Assembly: GCA_027364845.1 (NCBI GenBank)
Contig: DAHXOO010000005.1
Span: forward strand, 1-35,197
Source: Pseudomonadota bacterium
Lineage (GTDB): Bacteria > Pseudomonadota > Gammaproteobacteria > Acidiferrobacterales > UBA6901
DNA length: 35,197 nucleotides
Direction of reading: 5' to 3'
Shown here: positions 5,613 through 33,553 of the stretch, piece by piece
How positions within the stretch are numbered: the stretch's first letter is position 1
Layout: every line of letters begins with the position of its first letter
Translations under genes and position numbers: made by a program
The notes under the pieces: model-generated
The model's database searches: none
What the model saw: only the letters and a program-made list of their open reading frames with translations
What the model was told of the DNA's origin: nothing

Positions 5613-6212
5613 ATGGATGCTTTGACTTCGCGCCAAGCCCAGATTCTGCACATGATACGTCGCTTCATGGCGGATTCAGGTCGGCCACCGACGCGTTTGG
5701 AGATCACCGCCGCGCTCGGCTTCCGATCGCCGAATGCGGCCGAAGATCATCTGCGGGCGCTCGCGCGAAAGGGGGCGATCGAGCTTATACCGGGTACTTC
5801 GCGCGGTATCCGCCTCAAGGAGGAGGGGCTGCCGGTGGTAGGCAGAGTGGCAGCCGGCAGTCCGATTCTGGCGGAAGAGCACATCGAGGACCGCTATCAG
5901 GTTGATCCGGCACTTTTCCGTCCACACGCCGATTATTTTCTGCGGGTACGTGGTCATAGCATGCGCGATGCTGGCATCCTGAACGATGACCTGCTCGCAG
6001 TGCATCGCACGCCCGAGGCGGGCAATGGCCAGATCGTAGTGGCGCGCCTGACAGACGAGGTCACCGTGAAGCGTTTCCAGCGCCGTGGTTACCAGGTACG
6101 GCTGTTGCCGGAGAATCCCGATTTCGAGCCTATCGATATTGATCTGCGGCGCGATGCCTTCGCTATCGAGGGCATTGGCGTGGGCATTTTGCGCAACGGC
6201 AAACTCCGATGA
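5613..6212 (+). CDS. lexA: LexA-family SOS repressor of the imuAB-dnaE2 cassette
   Basis: This 199-residue repressor has a winged-helix DNA-binding domain (1-68) whose recognition helix GFRSPNAAE (36-44) matches E. coli LexA. A C-terminal S24-type self-cleavage domain follows, with the Ala81-Gly82 cleavage bond in VAAGSP, the nucleophile Ser116 in GHSMRD and the general base Lys153 in TVKRF. RecA-stimulated self-cleavage would inactivate it after DNA damage. The start at 5613 has AGGA nine bases upstream, and a LexA box covers its own promoter. The stop codon overlaps the imuA start (ATGA), tying it to the mutagenesis genes as in known lexA-imuA-imuB-dnaE2 cassettes. A second, global lexA may exist elsewhere in the genome; that cannot be judged here. 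Confidence 0.95.
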
Positions 6213-6862
6213 GCCTGCAGGACCTGATACAGGGCGCCGAGGTTTGGCGCGCCAGCGCCGCATCACCGTTTGCTCCGGGGGTGCCCAGCGGTTTTCCGCA
6301 ACTGGATGCGCTGCTGCCTGGGGGCGGTTGGCCATCCGGCACGATCACGGAGATCCTGATTCCGTGTCTGGGTATTGGCGAGTTGCAGTTGTTTTTGCCT
6401 GCTCTCGCGCGACTGAGTCATGGCAACCGCTGGCTCACCTTCATTGCACCGCCGCATATTCCCTATGCCCCGGCGCTGGCGGCGGCGCAGGTGGATTTGT
6501 CGCGGGTGTTGCTGGTTCATCCGCGCGCCACTATCGACGGGCTGTGGGCAGTGGAGCAGTCCTTGCGTGCCGGTACCTGCGGTGCGGTACTGGCCTGGCC
6601 GGCGGCCGCCGATGTGCGTGCCCTGCGGCGTTTGCAACTGGCGGCGGAGGCGGGTAGGTCCTGGGGTGTGCTGTTTCGTCCAGGGCAGACGGCTGTTGCA
6701 GGTTCTTCCGCCGCACTGCGCCTGCAGCTTGTACCCACCCCTGGTGGCATCGACGTATACATCCTGAAGCGGCGCGGTGGCTGGCCGGTTGGGCCGGTGT
6801 CGTTGGACCTGAGATTGAATCATGCTGTGGCTATGCCTGTATCTGCCGGATCTTGCGCTTGA
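6209..6862 (+). CDS. imuA: ImuA, RecA-like accessory protein of translesion synthesis
   Basis: This 217-residue protein of the ImuA family works with ImuB and DnaE2 in damage-induced mutagenesis. The family hallmark near the N-terminus, [14 protein letters not shown] (36-49), sits where RecA has its Walker A region but lacks a GKT/S triplet, so ATP binding may be lost. The central part (residues 60-175) follows the RecA/SulA-like alpha-beta pattern, ending in LLFRPG-type strands. The ATG overlaps the lexA stop, and the 3' end overlaps the start of imuB by 41 bp, so the three genes form one translationally coupled unit under the SOS promoter at 5551. The basic segment [18 protein letters not shown] near the C-terminus is typical of the family. 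Confidence 0.9.
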
Positions 6863-8303
6863 GATATTTACTCGCGGTGTGCCGGCAACTGATCCACTGG
6901 TCGTGGTTTACGGCAATGGACGTAATCGGCGGGTGGCATTGTGCAATGCCGCCGCGCGTCGCCGTGGCATACAGCCGGACATGGGCCTGAATGCGGCGCA
7001 TGCACTTGCCGGCTCATTACAGGTATGCGAGCGTGATGGAGAATCTGAACGTGCCGCGCTCGACCGTCTTGCAGCCTGGGCCGGTCAGTTCACCTCTGTC
7101 GTCAGCCAGATGCCACCGCAGGTGCTGTTGCTGGAAGTGGCCGGCAGCTGCCGGCTGTTCGGTGGCCTGGAACAATTGAGAGAGGCAGTTAGCCAAGGGG
7201 TTTCGGAACTCGGCTATTGTGTGTCTCTGGCAGTTGCGCCGACACCGCTTGCTGCTTTATGGCTGGCGCATGCCGGTTGCGAGATATGTGTTACCAGGCA
7301 GACCACGCTTGCTGCCGTGCTAGCCCCCCTGTCATTCGCGTGCCTCGGCCTGACTGCGAAGCAGGGCGAGACGCTGCATGGAATGGGAGTACATACGATT
7401 GGTGAATGCCTGCGTCTGCCACGAGACGGGTTAGCGCGACGCATGGGGCCGGAGTTGATCCACGTCCTCGACCGTGCCCTGGGACGCATTCCGGATCCAC
7501 GTCCGGCGTTTGTTGCGCCATCCGGGTTTGCGAGCAGTCTGCCGCTGCCGGGTGCGGTAAGTGCGGTCGAAGGGCTGCTGTTTCCTCTACGCCGATTGCT
7601 GATCGAACTCGAGGGGTTTTTACGTGCGCGCGATGCCGGCGCGCGTTCCCTGACGTTATCGTTGCATCACACGGCGGTCGGGGCTACACGGGTGGGGCTC
7701 GAGCTTGCGACGCCGTCGCGCGATGCAGCATATCTGGCGATGCTTCTGCGCGAGCGTCTGGAGCGCGTTGCATTGTCTGCGCCGGTGGAGGAGGTTTCGT
7801 TGCGTGCCGCGGATCCATGCCCGCTTGCCTTGCACAGTCTTGATTTCTTTGTGCCTGCGCATGCGGCGGAGGAGGCGCTTATTGAACGTCTGCGCGCGCG
7901 CCTGGGGAGGGATGCAGTACGTGGCTTGTGCCAGGTGGCGGAACACCGTCCGGAACGGGCCTGGACCTATGCTGAGCCGGGGGGTGATGCAACAACCCGC
8001 GGCGGGTCCGGCCGGCGGCTGTCACAACGCAGCGCATGTGCATCTCGAGGAGCAGGAGACCGGAATCGACCTCTGTGGCTACTGCATGAACCGATGCTGC
8101 TGGAAATGCGCGACGAACATCCGTATCTCGATGGCGTGCTGGTGCTTGGGCGGGAATGGGAACGTATCGAAAGCGGCTGGTGGGACGGGCAGGACGTCGC
8201 GCGTGATTACTTTATCGCCCGTAGCGAGCAAGGCATGCGGTTATGGGTGTACCGGGAGCTTGCAGGTGAGTATCGCTGGTTTCTCCACGGTGTGTTTGGC
8301 TGA
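6822..8303 (+). CDS. imuB: ImuB, catalytically inactive Y-family polymerase homologue
   Basis: A 493-residue member of the Y-family DNA polymerase fold that serves as a hub linking DnaE2, ImuA and the beta clamp. It begins [16 protein letters not shown]. The usual catalytic Asp of the first motif is missing, and the second catalytic motif has become LLLEVAGSCRLFGG (102-115) without the Asp-Glu pair, as expected for a non-catalytic ImuB. FASSLPLPG near residue 240 could be a clamp-binding-like motif, but that is inference. The C-terminal part keeps the family's conserved segments RPLWLLHEP, ESGWWDG, RDYFIAR and RLWVYREL. The start overlaps imuA. The ORF is intact despite a low-complexity Gly/Arg/Ser stretch before RPLWLL. 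Confidence 0.93.
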   Translation: MLWLCLYLPDLALEIFTRGVPATDPLVVVYGNGRNRRVALCNAAARRRGIQPDMGLNAAHALAGSLQVCERDGESERAALDRLAAWAGQFTSVVSQMPPQVLLLEVAGSCRLFGGLEQLREAVSQGVSELGYCVSLAVAPTPLAALWLAHAGCEICVTRQTTLAAVLAPLSFACLGLTAKQGETLHGMGVHTIGECLRLPRDGLARRMGPELIHVLDRALGRIPDPRPAFVAPSGFASSLPLPGAVSAVEGLLFPLRRLLIELEGFLRARDAGARSLTLSLHHTAVGATRVGLELATPSRDAAYLAMLLRERLERVALSAPVEEVSLRAADPCPLALHSLDFFVPAHAAEEALIERLRARLGRDAVRGLCQVAEHRPERAWTYAEPGGDATTRGGSGRRLSQRSACASRGAGDRNRPLWLLHEPMLLEMRDEHPYLDGVLVLGREWERIESGWWDGQDVARDYFIARSEQGMRLWVYRELAGEYRWFLHGVFG

Positions 8304-8578
8304 GCGCCGGCAATGTGGTTATGGTGTGGACCGCAGGTGCAAAGAAAGATTTCAGATTGGGGGAGGGGTTGCACAACTGCCGCGGCGACGCGCGGAGTGC
8401 AGTCTCGACCGGGATGTTTCAGCGGTAACCCGGGAGAATCCAGACACCCCATGTTGGCCACCTTCAAAACCCACGGCCTTGACCCATGGGAACGTTCAGC
8501 ACGGATGGCAGAATCTTTCGTGGGGCGACCCGCCTGTTTTGGTTGTGCCGGCCTGATATGCCGGCTGCGGATGTCATC
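8304..8578 (+). other. imuB-dnaE2 spacer with a hairpin before the start codon
   Basis: This gap is unusually long for this otherwise overlapping cassette. It contains a perfect 6-bp stem-loop (GCCGGC, loop CTGATAT, GCCGGC) at 8547-8565, 13 bases before the chosen dnaE2 ATG; an alternative in-frame ATG (8558) sits in its loop. I found no CTG-N10-CAG LexA box and no convincing promoter, so dnaE2 probably depends on readthrough from the lexA promoter. Open frames here have no recognisable protein features. Confidence 0.5.
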
Positions 8579-11500
8579 ATGGATACCTTGCCTGCCTACG
8601 CCGAACTTCACTGCCTTTCGAACTTCAGCTTCCTACGCGGTGCTTCGCGTCCCGAAGAGCTGGTCGAGCGTGCTGCTGGCCTAGGCTATACCGCGCTGGC
8701 CATCACCGACGAGTGCTCGCTGGCCGGAGTAGTGCGAGCGCATCTGGCGGCGCGTGACCGGCGGATCAGACTGATTTTGGGCAGTGAATTCGTGCTCGCC
8801 GACGGCCTGCGGTTAGTGTTGCTTGCGGCCGACCGCAGCTCCTATGGAGAGTTGTCGGAGTTGATTACCTGTGGTCGGCGCGCGGCGGGGAAGGGCAAAT
8901 ACAGCCTGGGGCGCGCGGACGTGGCGCGCATTGTTACTCGCTGTCTGGCGCTGTGGTTGCCAGAAGAGACTCCCGGATCGGTGCCAGACCCCGAGCCCGG
9001 GTTGTGGCTGCGACAGTGTTTCCCTGACAGCGCATGGATTGCGGTCGAGTTGACGCGTGATGGCCTCGATGGCGCGCGGCTTGAGTGCCTCACCGATCTG
9101 GGAAAGCGGACTGGCCTGCCACTTGTCGCCAGCGGGGATGTGCACATGCATGTGCACGCTCGGCGTACCCTGCAAGACACGCTTACTGCCATCCGTCTGG
9201 GCGTATCGCTGGACAAGGCCGGCTTTGCGCTGTATGCCAACGGCGAACGCCATCTGCGTACCCGTCGGGCTCTGGCGCGCCTCTATCCGCCAGAGCTGCT
9301 CTCCGAAACGGAGCGCATCGCTGAACGCTGCCATTTCTCTCTGGACGAACTGCGCTACGAGTATCCGGAGGAGCTGGTGCCGGCAGGCGAGACGCCCGCT
9401 GTTCATCTGGCGCGGCTTGTCACTGAAGGTCTGAGTCGGCGCTGGCCCGCCGGCGCGCCAGTCAAGGTGCGCGGATTGGTAGCGCACGAACTCGCGCTCA
9501 TCACTGAACTCGGCTACGAACCGTATTTCCTTACCGTGTACGACATCGTGCGCTTCGCCCGCTCGCGCGACATCCTCTGCCAGGGGCGTGGGTCCGCGGC
9601 CAACTCGGCAGTGTGCTACTGTCTCGGCATCACCGAAGTTGACCCGGCCCGCGTTGAGACCCTGTTCGAGCGCTTCATATCGAGAGAACGCAACGAGCCG
9701 CCCGATATCGACGTGGATTTCGAGCACGACCGGCGTGAGGAAGTGATCCAGTATATCTATGGCAAGTACGGCCGTGGGCGCGCGGCCCTTGCAGCGGCCG
9801 TTATCACCTACCGCCCGCGCAGCGCAGTGCGCGACGTGGGCAAGACGCTGGGGCTGGCGCCCGAGCAGCTGGACCGTTTGACTGCGAACCTCCAATGGTG
9901 GGATGGCTGTGATATCGTTCCGGCTCGTCTCGCCGAGGCCGGATTCGATCCAGCTAATCCCACAATCCGGCGCCTGATGGCGCAGGTGCGCGAGCTCCTG
10001 GGTTTTCCGCGCCACCTGTCCCAGCATATAGGCGGTTTCGTGATCGCGCGCGGGCCGCTGTCGTCCCTGGTGCCGATCGAAAACGCCGCCATGCCCGAAC
10101 GCACGGTGATCCAATGGGATAAGGACGACCTTGATGCGCTGGGTCTGTTGAAGGTCGACTGCCTGGCGCTCGGCATGCTTAGCGCCATCCACCGTACCTT
10201 TGATCTCATAGAGGAGATTAGAGGGCAGCGGCTCACGATGGCAACCCTGCCGGCTGAGGATCCTGCAGTGTACGCCATGCTCCAGCGAGCCGACACGGTG
10301 GGCGTATTCCAGATCGAGTCGCGCGCACAGATGGCGATGCTTCCCCGTCTCAAGCCTGATTGTTTCTACGACCTCGTGATTGAGGTGGCTATCGTGCGGC
10401 CGGGTCCGATCCAGGGTGGGATGGTACATCCCTATTTGCGCCGCCGGCGGGGCGAAGAGCCGGTGAGCTACCCTTCGGAAGCGGTGCGTGAAGTGCTTGC
10501 GCGCACGCTGGGTGTGCCCATCTTCCAGGAACAGGTGATCAGACTTGCCATGGTGGCGGCGGGATTCAGCGCCGGCGAAGCCGACCGGCTACGCCGTGCC
10601 ATGGCTGCCTGGCACCGGCGCGGCGGGCTCGAGCACTTCGAGCAACGCCTGATCGACGGTATGCGCGAAAACGGTTATACGGAGGATTTCGCGCGCCAGA
10701 TATTCGCCCAGATCCAAGGTTTCGGAGAATACGGGTTTCCCGAGTCCCATGCCGCAAGTTTTGCGCTGCTGGTGTATGTGTCGGCATGGCTTAAGTGTCA
10801 CGAGCCGGCAGCGTTCCTCTGCGCGCTACTGAACAGCCAGCCGATGGGATTCTATTCCCCGGCGCAGCTGGTGCAGGACACGCGCCGCCACGGTGTGGAA
10901 GTCCGGCCAGTGGACGTGTGCACCAGTGACTGGGATTGCACGCTGGAGGACAAGCGTTTTTCCGCGCCTGCCGTGCGACTGGGATTACGCTTGGTGCGGG
11001 GGCTTTCGCGTGCCGGAGCACGGTGCCTGGTCGATGCACGAACGCAGGCGCCGTTCATCGATGTCCCTGACCTGGCGCGGCGCGCACGTCTCGCGCGGCA
11101 CGACCTCGGCATGCTTGCCGCCGCCGGAGCGCTCACCGGGCTGGCCGGTCATCGGCATGCGGCGCGTTGGGCGGTTGCCGGAGTGGAGCCCGATCTGCCG
11201 CTGCTCGAAAATATCGACGTCGTCGAGGCACAGCCGCTGCTGCGCCGGCCCACGGAGGGAGAGGATATCGTTGCCGATTATGCCAACCTGGGACTCAGTC
11301 TGCGTCGCCACCCCCTGGCTCTGCTGCGTCTGCGCCTGGATCACCTCGGCGTGTCCCGTGCCGCAGCGATGCGCATACTTTCCCAAGGCAGTCCGGTACG
11401 TGCTGCCGGCATGGTCATCGGCCGTCAGCGTCCTGGCAGTGCCGGGGGTGTAATTTTTGTGACGCTCGAGGATGAAACTGGCAATGTCAATGTCATCGTC

Positions 11501-11671
11501 TGGCCGAAGGTGGCGGAGCGTGAACGCAGGGCACTGCTCGGCGCGCGTCTGCTGTTAGTGACTGGAAAGATCCAGAGAGAAGGCGAGGTGCTGCACGTGA
11601 TTGCCCGGCACCTGGAAGATCGCTCGGAGCTGCTCGGTGCGCTCGTCACTCATTCGCGCGATTTCCATTGA
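8579..11671 (+). CDS. dnaE2: DnaE2 (ImuC), error-prone C-family DNA polymerase
   Basis: This 1030-residue homologue of the DNA polymerase III alpha subunit performs damage-induced translesion synthesis with ImuA and ImuB. An N-terminal PHP domain begins [17 protein letters not shown] (about 7-23) and includes [12 protein letters not shown] (185-196). The palm carries PPDIDVDF with catalytic Asp378 and Asp380, and KVDCLALG with the third Asp at 527. A helix-hairpin-helix region and a C-terminal OB fold (about 925-1010: [31 protein letters not shown]) follow. I chose the ATG at 8579 because the family consensus starts just before [13 protein letters not shown]. In-frame ATGs at 8486 and 8558 would add 31 or 7 residues, and none has a strong ribosome-binding site. 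Length and all catalytic residues look intact. Confidence 0.95.
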
Positions 11672-18538: not shown

Positions 18539-18904
18539 AATTCGCAGACCCTGCCGGGGCAATTCAGCCAATCTATTGCAGGAGGACAACCGGGTGTTAG
18601 CCGGATGTGCACCCGACGAGGATCGCAAAGTGGGCCGCGATCCGATTATGGTCCCAGTGATATTCCGGCCGATGCATGACAATCCGGCCCGGCGGATTCA
18701 GGCGTCACACCGCCGCGGGAGGGCCGCCACCGCTTTCGATTTGTGAATCTTGATGAGGATCAATGTTCGGCCAATCCGCTCAGGTATCGTGAAAGTATCC
18801 GGGAAAATGAAAATTCGAGATGCACACCGCTCCGGCGGGCGATCAGCATGCGGGTTGTGGACCGCGGAGCATGGTCTAAGGCTGCGGGTCGTCGACGGCA
18901 ACGC
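18539..18904. other. Intergenic control region of the acetate kinase-phosphoketolase unit
   Basis: This non-coding stretch separates the exporter genes from the metabolic operon. A 7-bp stem GGATCGC/GCGATCC (18620-18626 with 18637-18643) and a CGGGTG/CACCCG stem (18591-18596 with 18610-18615) may mark the end of the upstream transcript, although neither carries a T run. The FNR-type box at 18750-18763 is annotated separately. An in-frame ATG at 18743 would extend the kinase by 54 residues, but it lies before the box and the added sequence lacks family features. Confidence 0.5.
18750..18790 (+). promoter_or_regulatory. FNR/Anr box and putative class II promoter
   Basis: TTGATGAGGATCAA (18750-18763) is a perfect match to the FNR/Anr consensus TTGAT-N4-ATCAA. 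A -10-like TATCGT lies at 18785-18790. That puts the expected start near 18797 and the box centre at about -41, the spacing of FNR class II activated promoters. It lies about 140 bp upstream of the acetate kinase-like ATG and is on the correct side to activate the acetate kinase, phosphoketolase and glucan phosphorylase genes at low oxygen. The match is seen directly; regulation is inference. Confidence 0.7.
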
Positions 18905-20014
18905 ATGAACATACTGACAGTAAACAGCGGCAGCTCTTCTGTGAGGCTCGCGGCCTTCAGGAGCTCAGACGAAGGCCGGCTGGAAGTGGTTGCGTCAGCG
19001 CATGAGGAACGAGCGATCGCAGCTCAGGAGGATTTTCTCGGGCGCTTTATCGTACAGTACGGTCTGACCGATGTGTCAGTGGTGGCGCATCGCGTTGTAC
19101 ACGGTGGCGCCTTGTTGACGGGATCGCGTTACGTTGACGAGGAAGTCGAGCACGAGATCGAGCGGCTTGAGCCGCTGGCACCCCTGCATAACGAACAGGC
19201 GCTGAGCTGGATCCGGTCGTGTCGCGCTCATTTTGGACTCCGAATACCGCAGGTCGCAGTATTCGACACTGCGTTCTATTCCAATCTGCCCGAAGCTGCG
19301 CGCAGCTATGCCTTGCCGCGGCCGATGACCGAGAAATACCGGCTGCGACGCTTCGGATTCCACGGGCTCGCCCACCGGGCCATGTGGCGGCGATGGACGC
19401 AACTGCACGAGGCGCAGGCCGGGCGCGGCCGGATCATCAGCCTGCAGCTCGGGTCCGGCTGCTCGGTGACGGCCACCAGGGACGGGGCTGCGCTCGATAC
19501 CTCGATGGGGTTCTCGCCCCTGGAAGGCCTAGTCATGGCCACCCGCTGCGGCGATATCGACGCGGGACTCCTCACCTACCTCCAGCGCAGCGAGGGGCTG
19601 ACGCCGGATCAAACGGACCGGATGCTGGAGAAGCAGTCTGGGCTCCTGGGTATGTCGGGCGTGAGCGGCGACATGCGAGAACTGCTTGTGGACGGCGGGG
19701 AGGGGGCGCGGCAGGCGATCGAGCTGTTCTGCTATCGCGCACGCAAGTATGTCGGCGCCTACCTCGCGGTACTGGGCGGAACGGACGGCATCGTGTTCGG
19801 GGGCGGCATCGGCGAGCATGCGCCGCAGGTGCGTGAGCGCATCCTGTCCGGCATGGAATGGTGCGGGGTCGTTCTGGACAAAGCCGCGAACGGTACGGCC
19901 GGCGGCGAACGGCGCATCAGCAGCGAGAAAAGCGCGGTGGATGTCTGGGTTTTCTCGGTAGATGAAGCTGGGGAACTCGCACGCGAGGCGCTCGCAGTTA
20001 TGACGCGACGTTGA
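18905..20014 (+). CDS. Acetate kinase-like enzyme (acetate/propionate kinase family)
   Basis: This 369-residue ASKHA-fold kinase should convert acetyl phosphate and ADP into acetate and ATP. Family motifs are NSGSSS (7-12), HRVVHGG (62-68), FDTAFY with Asp121, RFGFHGLAHR (149-158), DTSMGFSPLEGLVMATRCGDID (198-219, including Arg214) and FGGGIGEHA with Glu304. The protein is shorter than typical AckA (about 400 residues), and the usual HLGNG motif is QLGSG, so Gln181 replaces the catalytic-site histidine of the archaeal prototype. I chose the ATG at 18905 because MNILTVNSGSSS is the canonical start; there is no clear ribosome-binding site. The gene lies 54 bp before phosphoketolase, whose product acetyl phosphate is its substrate, and an FNR-type box precedes it. 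Confidence 0.88.
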   Translation: MNILTVNSGSSSVRLAAFRSSDEGRLEVVASAHEERAIAAQEDFLGRFIVQYGLTDVSVVAHRVVHGGALLTGSRYVDEEVEHEIERLEPLAPLHNEQALSWIRSCRAHFGLRIPQVAVFDTAFYSNLPEAARSYALPRPMTEKYRLRRFGFHGLAHRAMWRRWTQLHEAQAGRGRIISLQLGSGCSVTATRDGAALDTSMGFSPLEGLVMATRCGDIDAGLLTYLQRSEGLTPDQTDRMLEKQSGLLGMSGVSGDMRELLVDGGEGARQAIELFCYRARKYVGAYLAVLGGTDGIVFGGGIGEHAPQVRERILSGMEWCGVVLDKAANGTAGGERRISSEKSAVDVWVFSVDEAGELAREALAVMTRR

Positions 20015-20068
20015 GATGGTCGCGTGGGCCACGCCACTTGGTGGATGAATCAAGCTGGAGGGACAAAC

Positions 20069-22486
20069 ATGAAGAATAGCGAGGGCAAGGCCCCCAATAG
20101 TGACGGCAGAGCTACCGGCTACGGTGCGGGCCCGCTGTCGGCCGAGGAACTGCGCAAGATAGACGCCTACTGGCGGGCGGCCAATTACCTTTCGATCGGC
20201 CAGATCTATCTGGTCGACAATCCGCTGCTTTCAAAGCCGCTCGCGCTCGAACACATCAAGCCGCGCCTGTTGGGTCATTGGGGGACGACTCCGGGGCTCA
20301 ATTTCATCTATGCCCATATGAACCGGCTGATCAAGGCGCAGGATCTCAATGTCATCTACGTTACCGGTCCCGGGCATGGAGGCCCCGGACTTGTTGCCAA
20401 TACCTATCTGGAGGGCAGCTACAGCGAGTTCTATCCCAACATTTCGTGCAATACGGAGGGCATGAAGCGGCTTTTCCGGCAGTTTTCCTTCCCAGGCGGT
20501 ATTCCCAGCCATGTCGCGCCGGAAACCCCCGGATCCATCCACGAGGGTGGAGAGCTCGGCTATTCCCTGTCGCATGCATTCGGTGCCGTTTTTGACAATC
20601 CGGATCTGATTGCATGCTGTGTCGTCGGCGACGGGGAAGCCGAGACCGGACCGTTGGCTACGGCCTGGCATTCCAACAAGTTCCTCAACCCGGCGGGCGA
20701 CGGCGTGGTGCTTCCCATCCTTCATCTGAACGGCTACAAGATTGCCAATCCGACGGTGCTTGCACGCATAGGCCACGAGGAGCTGGAGAGCCTGTTGACA
20801 GGCTATGGCTATCATGCGTATTTCGTGGAAGGTTCGGATCCGGCGCTGATGCATCAGCAGATGGCGGCGACGCTGGATCGCGTGATTGCAGAGATCAAGG
20901 AGATCCAGGACGACGCGCGTTTGCATGGCGTCGCGCAGCGGCCGCGCTGGCCGGCCATCGTGCTGCGGACGCCCAAGGGGTGGACCTGCCCGGCCGAGGT
21001 CGATGGCAAGAAGCTAGAGGGGTATTGGCGCTCGCACCAGGTTCCGATCACCGAGATGGACAGCAAGCCGCAGCACGTGAAGCTGCTCGAGCAGTGGATG
21101 AAAAGTTATCGCCCCGAGGAGCTGTTCGACAGCGACGGGCGGCTGCTTCCCGAGCTGGCGGCCATGGCGCCTGCGGGCGCGCGGCGGATGGGATCCAACC
21201 CTCACGCCAATGGCGGGCTGCTGCTCAGAGAGCTGGACCTGCCTGATCTGGAGGATTACGCGATCTCGGTACCACGGCCCGGTGCGGTACAGGCCGAATC
21301 GACGCGCGTGCTCGGGATATTCCTGCGAGACGTGATGACACGGAACCTCGCAGCGCGCAATTTCCGGGTCATGGCCCCGGACGAGCTTGCGTCCAACCGG
21401 CTCGAGGCGTTGCTTGAGGTGACCGGACGTGCGTGGATGGCGGAAATTCTGCCGGAGGACGACCATCTGGCGCGCGATGGCCGGGTGATGGAGATTCTTT
21501 CGGAACATACCTGTCAGGGCTGGCTCGAGGGATACCTGCTTACCGGGCGTCACGGTCTTTTCACCTGCTACGAGGCGTTCATCCACATCGTGGATTCGAT
21601 GTTCAACCAGCATGCCAAGTGGCTCAAGGTCAGTAGCAGGGAGATTCCCTGGCGCCGTTCGATCGCCTCCCTAAACTACCTGCTTACTTCCCATGTCTGG
21701 CGCCAGGATCATAACGGCTTTTCCCATCAGGATCCCGGATTCATCGATCATGTGGTCAATAAAAAGGCCGACATAATCCGGGTCTATTTGCCTCCGGACG
21801 CCAATACGCTGCTTTTGGTCGTTGACTCCTGCCTGCGCAGCCGCAATCGGGTCAACGTGATCGTTGCCGGAAAGCAGCCCGAGGGGCAATGGCTCAATCT
21901 GGATGCAGCGCGCAAACACTGCGCTGCTGGCATCGGCATCTGGGATTGGGCAAGCAGCGATCAGGGTAGTGATCCCGAAGTGGTCATGGCCTGCGCCGGG
22001 GATGTGCCGACGCTCGAGGTCCTGGCGGCCGTCGACCTGCTGCGGCAGCACCTGCCGCAGCTTCGCATCCGGGTGGTGAACGTCGTGGATCTAATGACTC
22101 TGCAGCCGAAGGAAGAGCACCCGCATGGGCTGTCCGACAAGGATTTTGATGCGATCTTTACCCCCGACAAGCCGGTCATTTTTGCCTATCACGGATATCC
22201 ATGGCTGATTCACCGACTGACGTACCGACGTACAAACCACGCGAACATCCATGTGCGTGGCTACAAAGAGGAAGGGACCACCACAACGCCGTTCGATATG
22301 GCGGTACGCAATGATCTCGATCGGTTCCACTTGGTGGAAGACGTGATTGACCGGGTCCCGACTCTAGGATATCGCGCGGCCCACTTGAAGCAGGCGATGC
22401 GCGACAAGCGTGTCGACCATGTCCAATATATTAGAAGTTACGGCGAGGACATGCCTGAGGTACTCGAGTGGAAGTGGCCATATTGA
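20069..22486 (+). CDS. xfp: Xylulose-5-phosphate/fructose-6-phosphate phosphoketolase
   Basis: This 805-residue thiamine-diphosphate enzyme cleaves xylulose 5-phosphate or fructose 6-phosphate with phosphate into acetyl phosphate and a C3 or C4 sugar phosphate. Recognisable segments are IYLVDNPLL (46-54), [11 protein letters not shown] with the active-site His70, GPGHGGPG (100-107), the TPP motif [22 protein letters not shown] (187-208) with NGYKIANPT (221-229), and the C-terminal [17 protein letters not shown]. Length matches the bacterial family. The start at 20069 is fixed by GGAGGGA six bases upstream; an earlier in-frame ATG at 20024 lacks one. Placement between acetate kinase and glucan phosphorylase implies a phosphoketolase route to acetyl phosphate, acetate and ATP. 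Confidence 0.96.
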
Positions 22487-22542
22487 TGGAATCTGCAGGC
22501 GATCATACCAATGGCTAGTCTGTCCGGGCGAGGCACCTTCCC

Positions 22543-25098
22543 ATGATAATCACCAGAAGCCCGATACCCGTTGAGATGCCTACCGAGCTTCATGCTCTGG
22601 CTGAGCTGGCGACCGATGTCTTCTGGACATGGAGCCATGCAGGCGACGCGCTGTGGAAGAAGATTCATCCAGAAATCTGGGCGCAGACCGAGAATCCCTA
22701 TGCCATCCTTCAAAACCTCTCGCCTGAGCGCATGCGAGAGCTGGCGCAGGATGCTACATTTCGCGGTGAGCTTGAGCGCCTGGTGCAGGCTAGACAAGAG
22801 TATCTCGAACGCTCAAGCTGGTATGACAAGATTCCGAACGCGCGCAAAGTGCCGGTAGCCTACTTCAGCATGGAGTTCGGCCTGAGTGAAGCGCTGCCGC
22901 TCTACGCTGGCGGCCTCGGGATACTCGCCGGAGATCATCTCAAGGCTTCGAGTGACCTGGGGGTTCCGCTGGTCGGCGTCGGGCTGCTTTACCAGGAAGG
23001 GTATTTTCGCCAGACGCTCGATACCGGCGGCCGGCAGCTGGAAACTTATCCCTATAACGATACGACGAGCCTGCCGATTGTGCCGGCAGAAATCGGCGCC
23101 GGCGGCTGGCTGCACGTATCGATCGAGTTTCCGGGGCGACTGGTCAGGTTCCGGGTATGGCAGGTACGCGTGGGGCGGGTCTTGCTTTATTTGCTGGACA
23201 GCAATGATCCGCTCAACAGTCCGCGCGATCGCGGCATCACGAGCAGGCTCTATGGCGGCGGTCAGGAGCTGCGGCTGGTACAGGAGATCGCGTTGGGTAT
23301 CGGAGGCTGGCGCACGCTGGAAGCGTTGGGACTGGCAGTTGAGGTGTGTCACCTGAACGAGGGGCACGCTGCATTCGTGACGATTGAGCGGGCGCGGGCG
23401 TACATGCAGTCGCATGGTGTGGATTTCTGGGAAGCCTTGTGGGCGACCCGCGTTGGCAATGTCTTCACCACACACACTCCGGTGCCGGCGGGCTTCGACA
23501 GTTACGATCCGGCGCTGTTGGCGCGCTACGGAGGCGATTACGTCGCTGGTTTCGGTGTCTCCGCTAAGGAGCTTATGGCTCTGGGGCGCAAGAATATGGC
23601 TGACACAGGCGAGGCATTCAATATGGCCTATCTGGCTGCGCGTACCTGCGGCGTGATCAACGGTGTCAGCCGTCTACATGGACAGGTGAGTCAGCGCATT
23701 TTTCAAGGCCTTTATCCGCGCTGGCCGCAGTGCGACGTTCCAGTCGTGCACGTGACCAATGGCGTGCACGTGCCAACCTGGGACTCGGCATGGGCAGACG
23801 AAATTTGGACTGAAGCATGCGGAAAGGAGCGCTGGCTCGGGACCCTGGAAGATCTCGGTTCCGCGATCGAGGCTCTGGATGACGATGCGCTGTGGGCGTT
23901 TCGCGGCCGGCAGCGCAGCGACCTCGTACACTCCGCACGACAACGTCTTGCCCGCCAATTTGGGCAGCGCGGCGCGGAGGCACCGGCGATAGTGAGTGCG
24001 CATGACATTCTCGATCCGAATGCCCTGACTCTTGGTTTTGCGCGGCGTTTTGCCGAATACAAGCGCCCCAATCTGCTGCTGCATGATCACCGGCGTCTGC
24101 TGCGACTGCTGACCAACCGCGACTGCCCGGTCCAGATCATCGTGGCGGGGAAGGCGCATCCCCAGGATGAGGAGGGAAAGCAGTTCGTACGCGAATGGGT
24201 CGAGTTCGTGCAGCGTCCCGAGGTGCGAACACGCGCAGTTTTCCTCGAAGACTACGACATGACACTGGCGCAGGAGATGGTGCAGGGTGTCGATCTGTGG
24301 ATCAATACGCCCCGGCGTCCATGGGAAGCGTGCGGTACCAGCGGCATGAAGGTGCTGGTGAATGGAGGCATCAATTTATCGGAACTCGACGGCTGGTGGG
24401 CCGAAGCCTATTCGCCGGAAGTTGGTTGGGCACTCGGTGATGGGCGCGAGCACGCCGAGCTGGACTGGGATGCGAGCGAGGCCACGCAACTCTATCGCCT
24501 GCTGGAACAGGAGGTTCTGGGGGAGTTCTACGGGCGCGATGCTCGAGGTATTCCGCACCGCTGGGTGGCGCGGATGCGCGCAAGCATGGCGCAGCTTGCG
24601 CCCAGATTCAGCAGCAACCGCATGGTTCGGGAATACGTGGAAAACATATATCAGTCGGCGGCGAGCGCTTTTGAACAGCGTGCGGCCAATGCGGGAAAGT
24701 TCGCGCACGAGCTGCGCGTGTGGGAGCAGAACCTCGTCCGGCATTGGCACGGAGTACATCTGGGCAATCTCGAGGCCTGGCAGGAACCCGACGGCTGGTC
24801 GTTCGCATTGGCCGTGTATCTCGGTGAGATCTCACCCGATGAGGTGGCGGTTGAGCTTTATGCCGATCAGATTGATACGCAGCCGCCAGTGAAGGAGGCG
24901 ATGGAACGCCGAGCGATAATACCGGGTGCGGCAAACGGCTATGTCTATCATTGCCGCATTGCGAGCACGCGTCCCGTGTCACACTTTACTCCGCGGGTGA
25001 TCCCCTACCACGCTTTAGCACGTGTGCCTGGCGAGCTCAACCTGGTACTGTGGGGTATGAGCGCGGTTACCATTCATGCGCTGCAGGCCGGTGCGTAA
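22543..25098 (+). CDS. glgP: Alpha-glucan (glycogen) phosphorylase
   Basis: This 851-residue protein of the shorter, bacterial/archaeal-type alpha-glucan phosphorylase family releases glucose 1-phosphate from glycogen or maltodextrin. The N-terminal domain (from about residue 12) is the DUF3417-type region typical of this branch. The catalytic part includes VAYFSMEFGLSEALPLYAGGLG (about 106-127), HLNEGHAAF, VFTTHTPVPAGFD, and the PLP site EACGTSGMKVLVNGGIN with the cofactor lysine at about 603. A C-terminal extension (710-851) continues beyond the catalytic core. The gene starts 56 bp after phosphoketolase without an intervening terminator, so co-transcription is likely; the ribosome-binding site is weak. 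It converges with the helicase gene, 116 bp beyond its stop. Confidence 0.93.
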   Translation: MIITRSPIPVEMPTELHALAELATDVFWTWSHAGDALWKKIHPEIWAQTENPYAILQNLSPERMRELAQDATFRGELERLVQARQEYLERSSWYDKIPNARKVPVAYFSMEFGLSEALPLYAGGLGILAGDHLKASSDLGVPLVGVGLLYQEGYFRQTLDTGGRQLETYPYNDTTSLPIVPAEIGAGGWLHVSIEFPGRLVRFRVWQVRVGRVLLYLLDSNDPLNSPRDRGITSRLYGGGQELRLVQEIALGIGGWRTLEALGLAVEVCHLNEGHAAFVTIERARAYMQSHGVDFWEALWATRVGNVFTTHTPVPAGFDSYDPALLARYGGDYVAGFGVSAKELMALGRKNMADTGEAFNMAYLAARTCGVINGVSRLHGQVSQRIFQGLYPRWPQCDVPVVHVTNGVHVPTWDSAWADEIWTEACGKERWLGTLEDLGSAIEALDDDALWAFRGRQRSDLVHSARQRLARQFGQRGAEAPAIVSAHDILDPNALTLGFARRFAEYKRPNLLLHDHRRLLRLLTNRDCPVQIIVAGKAHPQDEEGKQFVREWVEFVQRPEVRTRAVFLEDYDMTLAQEMVQGVDLWINTPRRPWEACGTSGMKVLVNGGINLSELDGWWAEAYSPEVGWALGDGREHAELDWDASEATQLYRLLEQEVLGEFYGRDARGIPHRWVARMRASMAQLAPRFSSNRMVREYVENIYQSAASAFEQRAANAGKFAHELRVWEQNLVRHWHGVHLGNLEAWQEPDGWSFALAVYLGEISPDEVAVELYADQIDTQPPVKEAMERRAIIPGAANGYVYHCRIASTRPVSHFTPRVIPYHALARVPGELNLVLWGMSAVTIHALQAGA

Positions 25099-30993: not shown

Positions 30994-31571
30994 TTGACTG
31001 ATGTGTTCAGTGATTGGTGGCACCGTACGTACGTGCTTCGGTTTCACCGCAGGTGCGGCTGGCTGCGGGAACGACTACGGAGAAGGATATCGTCACGCAT
31101 CGTTTGCTTCGAACTTCGACATCAGGCGGTCGCGTTGTAGATGCGATGCATCGAGTGTGGCTACATGCGCTTAGTGTGCGGTGGGTATACAATGGCCGTG
31201 TCGCTGTGACCAGCGCGAATCTGCGATTGGAACAGATGTTTCGAATCGAGACAGTGGCTGTGCCGGGGCCCGGCTTTTGCGGTTCTCCGCTCAATAGCTT
31301 CGCGCGTTCGGCTGGATGCCCGCTCGCGGATTGCGTTACGCGGGCTGTCACATAGAAGCTGGCATGGGTCGGGGCGGGTGGTACGCGCTCACGTTGCGTG
31401 GCAGGGTCGGTACCTCCTGATTGGTCTCAGTCGAGCGCACCGCCATGCAGTATGGTGACTGGGTTTTCCGGGGAGGTGTGCCCGGTTTTCTGAGGCAGAC
31501 GCTCATCGCATGGCTCTGTGTTTGAGCGTCACGGCGGACACTAGACCCGGATGCAATTGACGGAGGTGGAA
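30994..31571. other. Intergenic region upstream of the universal stress gene
   Basis: No gene is recognised. Frames of about 113 residues are open on both strands over 31007-31355, a frequent artefact in GC-rich DNA. The plus-strand frame reads somewhat protein-like (for example RVAVTSANLRLEQMFRIETV) but has no ribosome-binding site and no recognised family. A GCCGG-GGC-CCGGC hairpin followed by TTTT (31262-31278) could be a terminator or the end of a small RNA. No FNR-type box is found here. Confidence 0.35.
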
Positions 31572-32027
31572 GTGTACAAGAATATCCTGGTTCCGGTAGA
31601 TGGTAGCGATACAGCGAAAGCGGCCTTGCAGGAGGCCATAAAACTTGCTCACAGCGAATCCACGGGGTTACGAATCATTTATGTCGTTGATTCCGCTGCC
31701 TCCGTCTGGGATTCCGAATTCACTCCCATTGACCTCGATCAGATTCAGGAATCGGTGCGAAGCTACGCGCACGGTATCCTCGAGAGCGCGCAGCGCATAG
31801 CCCGCGACGGGGGAATTGATGCGGAAGCCCGTCTCGTCGAACCCCAAAAACCCGGTCAGCGGGTCGCCAAGGTGATCGCCGAGCATGCCCTAGAATGGCC
31901 GGCCGATCTTATCGTAATCGGTACGCATGGACGCCGCGGCCTCGACCATCTGCTGCTTGGGAGCGTTGCCGAAGGCGTGATGCGTACATCTCCGGTACCG
32001 GTACTGCTGGTCCGCGGACATCGCTAG
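31572..32027 (+). CDS. Universal stress protein (UspA family)
   Basis: A 151-residue single-domain Usp protein. It begins YKNILVPVDGSDTAKAAL, with the conserved Asp10 of the first strand, and keeps the ATP-binding signature GTHGRRGLDHLLLGS (117-131: G-x2-G-x9-G-S), so it is probably the nucleotide-binding type. The final strand is SPVPVLLVR. I chose the GTG at 31572 because GGAGG lies five bases before it and the family normally starts at this point; the in-frame ATG at 31551 lies before that ribosome-binding site. The gene is convergent with the HPF-cold-shock gene, 48 bp apart. Such proteins are commonly induced on energy limitation, oxygen limitation or stasis, which suits its neighbours. 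Confidence 0.92.
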   Translation: MYKNILVPVDGSDTAKAALQEAIKLAHSESTGLRIIYVVDSAASVWDSEFTPIDLDQIQESVRSYAHGILESAQRIARDGGIDAEARLVEPQKPGQRVAKVIAEHALEWPADLIVIGTHGRRGLDHLLLGSVAEGVMRTSPVPVLLVRGHR

Positions 32028-32075: not shown

Positions 32076-32639
32076 TCAGTCCGGGGCGCCATGCTTGCCG
32101 CTTGCCACCCAAGCTGCCTGGGGTCCTTCGTAGCCCTCTTCTTCGGTGTAAACCACTTCGGTACCCACGTCCAGACGCTCGAAATCCAGGTCGCGCAGGC
32201 TGTTTGCGTGGAAGTAGATATCACGATCGTCGGCAGTGCGCAGAAAGCCGTATCCTTGCGCCGGAAACATTCGAAGCACATGCGCATGGCGCACGATCTC
32301 TTGGGTTTTCACTTCGCCCCGTTCGCGGCGCGCGTAATCCTGCAACTGACGCCTGGCGGCATCGAATGCATCGCGGATCGCGACATAGACGTCTTCATGC
32401 GAGTCATTACCGGATGGGTCCCGCGTTACCGCGAGTTCGCTGCCAGGCACTGTAATGTCGATTCGTACCTGGTAGTGTTTGCCTTGATGCTGGTGACGAT
32501 GCATAGCCTCAACCAGAACGCGGCAGCTTGTGATTCGGTCGTAAAACCGGTCGAGCTTTTGTGCTTTCTTACGGATCGCCCCATCGATCGCTTCCGAATG
32601 GGGCATGTCGCGCACGGTGATTTGTAATGAAGCTGTCAT
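32076..32639 (-). CDS. HPF/RaiA ribosome hibernation domain fused to a cold-shock domain
   Basis: A 187-residue two-domain protein. Residues 1-105 form an HPF/RaiA-type sigma-54 modulation domain: LQITVRDMPHSEAIDGAIRKKAQKLDRFYDRITSCRV, a basic His-rich hairpin (MHRHQHQGKHYQVRIDITVPG) and the helix DVYVAIRDAFDAARRQLQDY. Residues 118-180 form a cold-shock OB fold with RNP-like motifs GYGFLRTAD and DIYFHANSL. Such proteins are expected to bind the decoding region of the 30S subunit and single-stranded RNA, stabilising idle ribosomes. I chose the ATG at 32639 because the domain begins there; an ATG at 32678 adds 13 residues and lacks a ribosome-binding site. Upstream is a long leader headed by an FNR-type promoter. 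The fusion is a known but uncommon architecture. Confidence 0.9.
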   Translation of the reverse strand: MTASLQITVRDMPHSEAIDGAIRKKAQKLDRFYDRITSCRVLVEAMHRHQHQGKHYQVRIDITVPGSELAVTRDPSGNDSHEDVYVAIRDAFDAARRQLQDYARRERGEVKTQEIVRHAHVLRMFPAQGYGFLRTADDRDIYFHANSLRDLDFERLDVGTEVVYTEEEGYEGPQAAWVASGKHGAPD

Positions 32640-33036
32640 AGTCAGGTTCCCATTTTTGAATTGATGCGTCGGGTCCATAATTGCGGCACCGCAACTGGAT
32701 TTCGCGGCGCAGGCTTCCGTGGATCCGGCTCAGATCTTTCTCAGCACGCGGGCATGCCGCCACGGAAAACGCCGTTGCCTATGTGTCGCCGGTATGAATA
32801 AAGCAGCCGCGGATTCCGGTGTCGAAATCGTCATATCGAAAATACCCCCTTTTGATATTGTCGAATGCGGGCAAGATCGGGAGCCACATTGTCGACGACC
32901 GCAGCAGTCTGTCTTGCCATGGACTCTGAAGCCTCCAGGTCGCTTCGTTCTGTTACTGCCTCGCCTGACGCCATGTGGCCGTATGAAACTTCCGGATTCT
33001 GCTTGCCTAAGGTGTCACGCAAATCCTCATGTTTTT
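32640..33036 (-). other. Long leader of the HPF-cold-shock gene, with short ORFs
   Basis: If transcription starts near 33030, the message has a leader of about 390 nt. It contains three short minus-strand frames. The first is a 7-codon frame MRICVTP whose ATG (33030-33028) coincides with the predicted first base. The second is a 63-codon TTG frame (33022-32831). The third is a 34-codon frame (32834-32730) that overlaps the second by ATGA and has AAGGGGG ten bases before its ATG. None has a recognised family. The leader may hold real microproteins or translational control; no T-rich terminator is seen within it. Confidence 0.35.
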
Positions 33037-33078
33037 CTTATACACAATTTCGCTGTATTGTGATTTGATCCAGATCAG
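33037..33078 (-). promoter_or_regulatory. FNR/Anr class II promoter toward the HPF-cold-shock gene
   Basis: On the plus strand, TTGATCCAGATCAG (33065-33078) matches TTGAT-N4-ATCAA at nine of ten defined bases. Read on the minus strand, a -10 element TATAAG occupies 33042-33037. The predicted start is then at 33030 and the box is centred at exactly -41.5, the classical geometry of an FNR-activated class II promoter. On the plus strand no comparable -10 lies at the right distance, so the direction is toward the HPF-cold-shock gene. Spacing and sequences are directly seen; oxygen control is inferred. Confidence 0.7.
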
Positions 33079-33340: not shown

Positions 33341-33553
33341 ATGCGTTACCGAATCAACGGACATCACGCTCACGCTGCCGCCGTGGTCACCGATCATACG
33401 GTGCTGTTCACAGTGGTGTTGTCGCTGTTGCTCGGCATTGTGTTAGTCCGCCTCAGCCTGTATGGGCGGCAAAGATGGTTGACTTTCTGGGCTGCCAGCC
33501 TCGTGCTGGCATCGCTGATCTATCTTGTGGCCACGTGGTTGGGCTACCAGTAG
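33341..33553 (+). CDS. Small two-helix membrane protein, hypothetical
   Basis: A 70-residue frame with two strongly hydrophobic stretches: TVLFTVVLSLLLGIVLVRLSL (about 20-40) and FWAASLVLASLIYLVATWLG (about 49-68). A basic loop (YGRQRW) between them would favour a cytoplasmic hairpin turn. AGAG lies five bases before the ATG, a weak ribosome-binding site. I recognise no family. The clean membrane pattern and natural stop favour a real gene over a chance frame, but it stands alone between non-coding stretches. Confidence 0.45.
   Translation: MRYRINGHHAHAAAVVTDHTVLFTVVLSLLLGIVLVRLSLYGRQRWLTFWAASLVLASLIYLVATWLGYQ

Follow-up and report, generated by a model that had tools for sequence, protein, structure and literature searches.

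A conserved FNR/Anr class II-type promoter block upstream of the ribosome hibernation factor gene HPFcold in a gammaproteobacterial genus

The DNA analyzed in this work (hereinafter the window, a stretch of 35,197 nucleotides from an uncultured Pseudomonadota bacterium of the order Acidiferrobacterales) harbors on its minus strand, at positions 32076–32639, a gene coding for HPFcold, a protein of 187 amino acids in which an N-terminal S30AE/HPF domain (PF02482, 61.9 bits) is joined to a C-terminal cold-shock domain (PF00313, 37.2 bits). Residues 3–179 of the 187 match chain 9 of the PDB entries 9t0z and 9tze (E = 2.6e-40), and the protein present in 9T0Z is the HPFcold of Coxiella burnetii (CBU_0020), so that the likeness embraces the two domains and nearly the full length. 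In the Coxiella structure the protein occupies the decoding centre and the mRNA path, and its cold-shock domain covers the anti-Shine-Dalgarno sequence (PMC13392368); by analogy, the window HPFcold would bind the 30S decoding centre and the anti-Shine-Dalgarno as well. On one side the gene is adjoined by a convergent universal stress protein gene (31551–32027, plus strand; PF00582), as it also is at locus L002, and on the other side lies a divergent ORF (33341–33553, plus strand) for a small predicted membrane protein of 70 amino acids, which has no match in Pfam and a similar counterpart in the same place in L002. Elsewhere in the window (5613–11671, plus strand), a LexA-like gene is followed by ImuA-, ImuB- and DnaE2-like genes, a putative SOS mutagenesis cassette, as judged from the translations.

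Upstream of the HPFcold gene, and on the same strand, the elements of an FNR/Anr class II promoter can be recognized. An FNR/Anr box (CTGATCTGGATCAA, 33078–33065), matching the consensus at 9 of 10 positions, is followed by a 22-nt spacer (ATCACAATACAGCGAAATTGTG, read from the sequence between 33065 and 33042) and then by the -10 element TATAAG (33042–33037), which agrees with TATAAT at five of six positions and is separated by AAAAAC from an ATG at 33030. The geometry alone places the predicted +1 at A33030, so that the centre of the box falls at -41.5, which, together with the 22-nt gap to the -10, is the arrangement of class II FNR promoters. Two further short motifs lie within the spacer, namely ATCACA (33059–33064, from -34 to -29) and TGTG (33043–33046, from -16 to -13), the latter abutting the -10 on its upstream side. 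A good -35 element is absent from the window sequence; class II promoters do not require one. The coordinates that the initial annotation had assigned to the box, the -10 and the -41.5 geometry on the minus strand all hold, and so does the distance of about 390 bp to the HPF-cold-shock gene, whose start (32639) lies 391 nt downstream of the predicted +1. The same annotation had called the promoter near-ideal, which is slightly overstated in view of the left half-site (CTGAT here, CTGAC in four related species) and of the lack of a good -35. When the whole window was subjected to dinucleotide shuffling, the combination of a box carrying no more than one mismatch with a -10 matching five or more of six positions, 21–23 nt apart, appeared once in 60 shuffles (mean 0.017), and three one-mismatch FNR boxes are present in the window against 0.46 expected. 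An action of FNR on the divergent ORF was discarded, since inspection of the sequence revealed, towards that ORF, no -10 spaced as in class II promoters.

The organization of this region was compared between the window species and four other species of the genus (G001–G004), which were found through the protein (72–83% identical) and whose contigs, in their named copies, are metagenome-assembled genomes. In all five species the orthologous HPFcold gene is preceded by the block CTGA(C/T)-N-TGGATCAAATCACAA-N11-TGTGTATAA(G/A), in which the box is conserved as CTGA(T/C)N(1)TGGATCAA, the left half-site being CTGAT in the window species and CTGAC in the other four, and the -10 is TATAAG in four species and TATAAA in one. 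The distance of 22 nt from box to -10 is identical in all of them in spite of the indels that surround the block. Pairwise column identity amounts to 0.92 in the box, 1.0 in ATCACAA, 1.0 in TGTG and 0.93 in the -10, in contrast to 0.31–0.44 in the upstream flank and 0.35–0.37 in the downstream one, and all the identical words of at least 8 nt that the five species have in common within the 750 nt that precede the gene come from the promoter block. In a search allowing up to three mismatches, GATCAAATCACAA-N11-TGTGTATAA was found once per genome, with no mismatches, in each of the five genomes of the genus, with no second copy in any of them and none in the 52 other genomes of the order. The conservation of both block and spacing amid diverged DNA represents strong evidence for a functioning promoter, and the idea of a class II FNR-type promoter aimed at the HPF-cold-shock gene stood up to the comparison with related genomes that the initial annotation had proposed, at least for box and spacing, the leader frame not being kept (see below). 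We regard activation of this promoter by FNR/Anr as the best reading, and as a quite probable one. Against it speaks the left half-site, a weak match (CTGAC) in the four relatives, where the two half-sites are present and the box as a whole scores 8/10, rather than the 9/10 of the window.

ATCACA and TGTG are invariant in the five species, while the bases between them vary, and this conservation exceeds the need of a class II FNR promoter; thus, some additional function may reside in these bases. One reading of ATCACA is a degenerate -35, matching TTGACA at four of six positions with a 16-nt spacer, and this would be the simplest account of its conservation. The two motifs also form a dyad, CACA-N12-TGTG, which is centred at -22.5 and grows in G004 into a perfect palindrome of 20 nt. 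In addition, a perfect palindrome, CCAAGTCTGACTTGG, lies over the left FNR half-site in G002, G003 and G004 (loci L173, L172 and L171, respectively), each of these genomes having no other perfect copy of it, and it may be because of this overlap that the half-site reads CTGAC. One might then imagine a second operator within the block, whose ATCACA/TGTG arms would be bound by a putative repressor or co-regulator, FNR exerting only part of the control. That the arms are as conserved as the box, the spacer between them not being so, and that the single perfect CCAAGTCTGACTTGG of three genomes spans the half-site are in agreement with this idea, which we nonetheless consider unlikely: the part of the CACA/TGTG dyad common to all the species comprises just four base pairs, ATCACA could be the degenerate -35 mentioned above, TGTG could serve as a contact preceding the -10, and the CCAAGTC palindrome is missing in the window species and in G001. 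Improbable as well, in our opinion, is a composite oxygen switch of about 42 bp, in which FNR and a putative second regulator would act on interlocked palindromes, in one genus and solely for HPFcold, upon the stop of respiration.

Activation by FNR requires a resident regulator, and the genome of the window species encodes two FNR-type proteins scoring above the NCBIfam Fnr cut-off, with the cysteine clusters CKDCSLRELC and CRECTLFQLC (CxxCx5C) and ETVSR helices; hence, the Fe-S cysteines and the ExxSR helix of a cognate regulator are both encoded. Both kinds of protein occur in all five species, two per genome. The presence of the box and of the two resident FNR proteins leads us to infer that oxygen is the signal. 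A third FNR-like protein (L062, G000:C131) is devoid of the cysteine cluster and carries ALETVSRLL in its recognition helix, and proteins with similar scores are encoded by G002–G004. The boxes recognized by DNR and by FNR hardly differ. It might be, therefore, that the box is mainly read by an FNR relative with a different sensing mode (a DNR/NNR-like NO sensor or a FixK-like protein), in which case the signal would be NO or a cascade rather than oxygen directly. This possibility, which the helix of L062 and the likeness of the two boxes favor, appears rather improbable when set against the two true CxxCx5C FNR-type proteins of every member of the genus and against the genes preceded by such boxes in this genome, which are classic genes of oxygen limitation.

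Genome-wide, ten perfect FNR boxes were counted versus none for the reversed pattern, and 27 class II sites (box, 22 nt, TAnnnT) versus three in the control. Others of these class II sites precede ORFs that we read, from their sequences, as probable CydA (cytochrome bd oxidase), HypA, catalase and others. The two FNR-type proteins and the excess of class II sites before typical targets make it likely that a working FNR regulon exists in this genome. Within the window itself, a perfect box (TTGATGAGGATCAA, 18750–18763, plus strand) stands before genes for acetate kinase, phosphoketolase and alpha-glucan phosphorylase (18905–25098); this site is kept in all five species with a gap of 21 nt and TATCGT, the box being perfect in four of them and carrying TTGAC in one, which suggests an FNR-driven fermentation of stored glucan. 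At L159/L160 and L161/L162 (G000:C118) and at L165/L166 (G000:C121), both strands carry FNR boxes together with -10-like elements of the class II kind, and these are possible divergent FNR promoters. Each genome of the genus also encodes one additional, short HPF; in the window genome the locus of this gene has no FNR box at up to two mismatches, and FNR control of the short HPF was accordingly rejected there.

The transcript expected from this promoter would carry a 5' leader of 391 nt (32640–33030, minus strand), whose length and sequence, except next to the ATG, are not conserved in the genus; indeed, the distance from the predicted +1 to the HPFcold ATG is 391, 369, 370, 148 and 236 nt in the five species. 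No Rfam match was found in the leader, and the folding energies of the leaders fall between about +0.5 and -2 SD of mononucleotide shuffles, with no shared length; on these grounds a leader RNA element was set aside. The ATG on the predicted +1 opens a seven-codon frame (ATGAGGATTTGCGTGACACCTTAG, MRICVTP, 33030–33007, closed by TAG), exactly as the initial annotation had reported, and this coincidence of start codon and start site had given rise to the suggestion of a leaderless leader peptide coupling translation at +1 to expression. The relatives do not bear this suggestion out. An ATG on the predicted +1 is missing from all four other species, and an upstream ORF common to the five was not found, either by position or by sequence: the first ATG frame has seven codons in the window, 81 in G002 and 24 in G003 (both at +12), starts at +8 in G004 and does not exist in G001. 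Moreover, the leaders of L002 and L003 differ by frame-breaking indels, and since such indels break the frames between the closest species, a conserved leader ORF or a degraded gene between promoter and HPFcold was likewise rejected. An ATG occurs by chance at a given position about once in 64 times. The ATG at +1 is thus probably a coincidence, and the peptide an exceedingly unlikely explanation.

The length of the leader bears also on another interpretation, according to which the real message would begin near 32639 from a different promoter, the FNR site serving a non-coding transcript or a lost gene. A leader of this length and divergence could accommodate a second start closer to the HPFcold gene, and in other lineages HPFcold lies 48–141 nt downstream of the box. 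However, the minus strand shows no promoter-like site from 33030 to the gene, and the leader contains no further conserved long word, no common open frame and no Rfam match; we hold this scenario to be very unlikely, and keep to the FNR-activated promoter as that of HPFcold.

Outside the genus, 11 of 76 HPFcold loci have, in the 300 nt upstream of the gene, an FNR box with one mismatch or none, in comparison with none in the matched downstream stretch of the same loci and with a mean of 1.2 (maximum 5) for 19 control palindromes; the box-to-gene spacing varies among these loci. Since the other 65 of the 76 are devoid of a box, FNR control does not extend to the HPFcold family at large; it seems, rather, to have arisen or to have been kept in several lineages, which represent a minority. 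At L068 (2953–3003), a perfect FNR box, a 22-nt gap and CAAAAT put the predicted start on the HPFcold ATG itself, and the message may there be leaderless.

On the basis of these data, the following scenario can be depicted for the window species. As oxygen falls, one of the two FNR-type proteins would regain its 4Fe-4S cluster, dimerise and bind the box at -41.5, and the bound protein would contact the RNA polymerase in the class II fashion, offsetting the missing or weak -35. Transcription from TATAAG would begin at about 33030 and yield an mRNA with an untranslated leader of about 390 nt, whose translation would start from 32639. HPFcold, placed on the 30S decoding centre and on the anti-Shine-Dalgarno, might then preserve unused ribosomes in a silent state during energy shortage. 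What we read in these genomes suggests that bacteria of this genus shelve their ribosomes once oxygen is gone.

We place the promoter, as a new example with HPFcold as its target, in the FNR class II type, which is already known. With the FNR/Anr class II promoters of gammaproteobacteria it shares the TTGAT-N4-ATCAA-like box at -41.5, the 22 nt to the -10 and the lack of a notable -35, and it differs from them in its target, a hibernation factor, and in the additional conserved ATCACA and TGTG of the spacer. Unlike what is described for the Coxiella HPFcold, in whose paper FNR is not mentioned in the main text (PMC13392368), the window gene carries an FNR-type promoter. In Escherichia coli, the hibernation factor raiA is also tied to FNR or anaerobiosis, with a sign opposite to the activation proposed here for HPFcold, a review (PMC10502375) describing raiA as repressed by FNR; an RNA-seq paper on Shigella (PMC4229854) shows an anaerobic increase of yfiA and does not list this gene as FNR-dependent. 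A further related case is mycobacterial RafH (Rv0079/MSMEG_3935), a second hibernation factor that is induced at low oxygen through DosR (PMC10799931); it has in common with the case under study the low-oxygen induction via a dedicated regulator, and differs from it in that DosR belongs to an unrelated two-component system and in its HPFlong-type architecture.

Ribosome-bound HPFcold has had a published structure only since 2026, and our search of open-licence papers retrieved nothing on the regulation of HPFcold and no report of FNR activating an HPFcold gene. If the proposed activation is true, the standard oxygen sensor of proteobacteria would be linked directly and positively to ribosome storage and, given that mycobacteria do something similar via DosR and RafH, the FNR/HPFcold pair would represent an independent solution to the same problem. 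The loss of oxygen would also provide a testable condition for when HPFcold acts.
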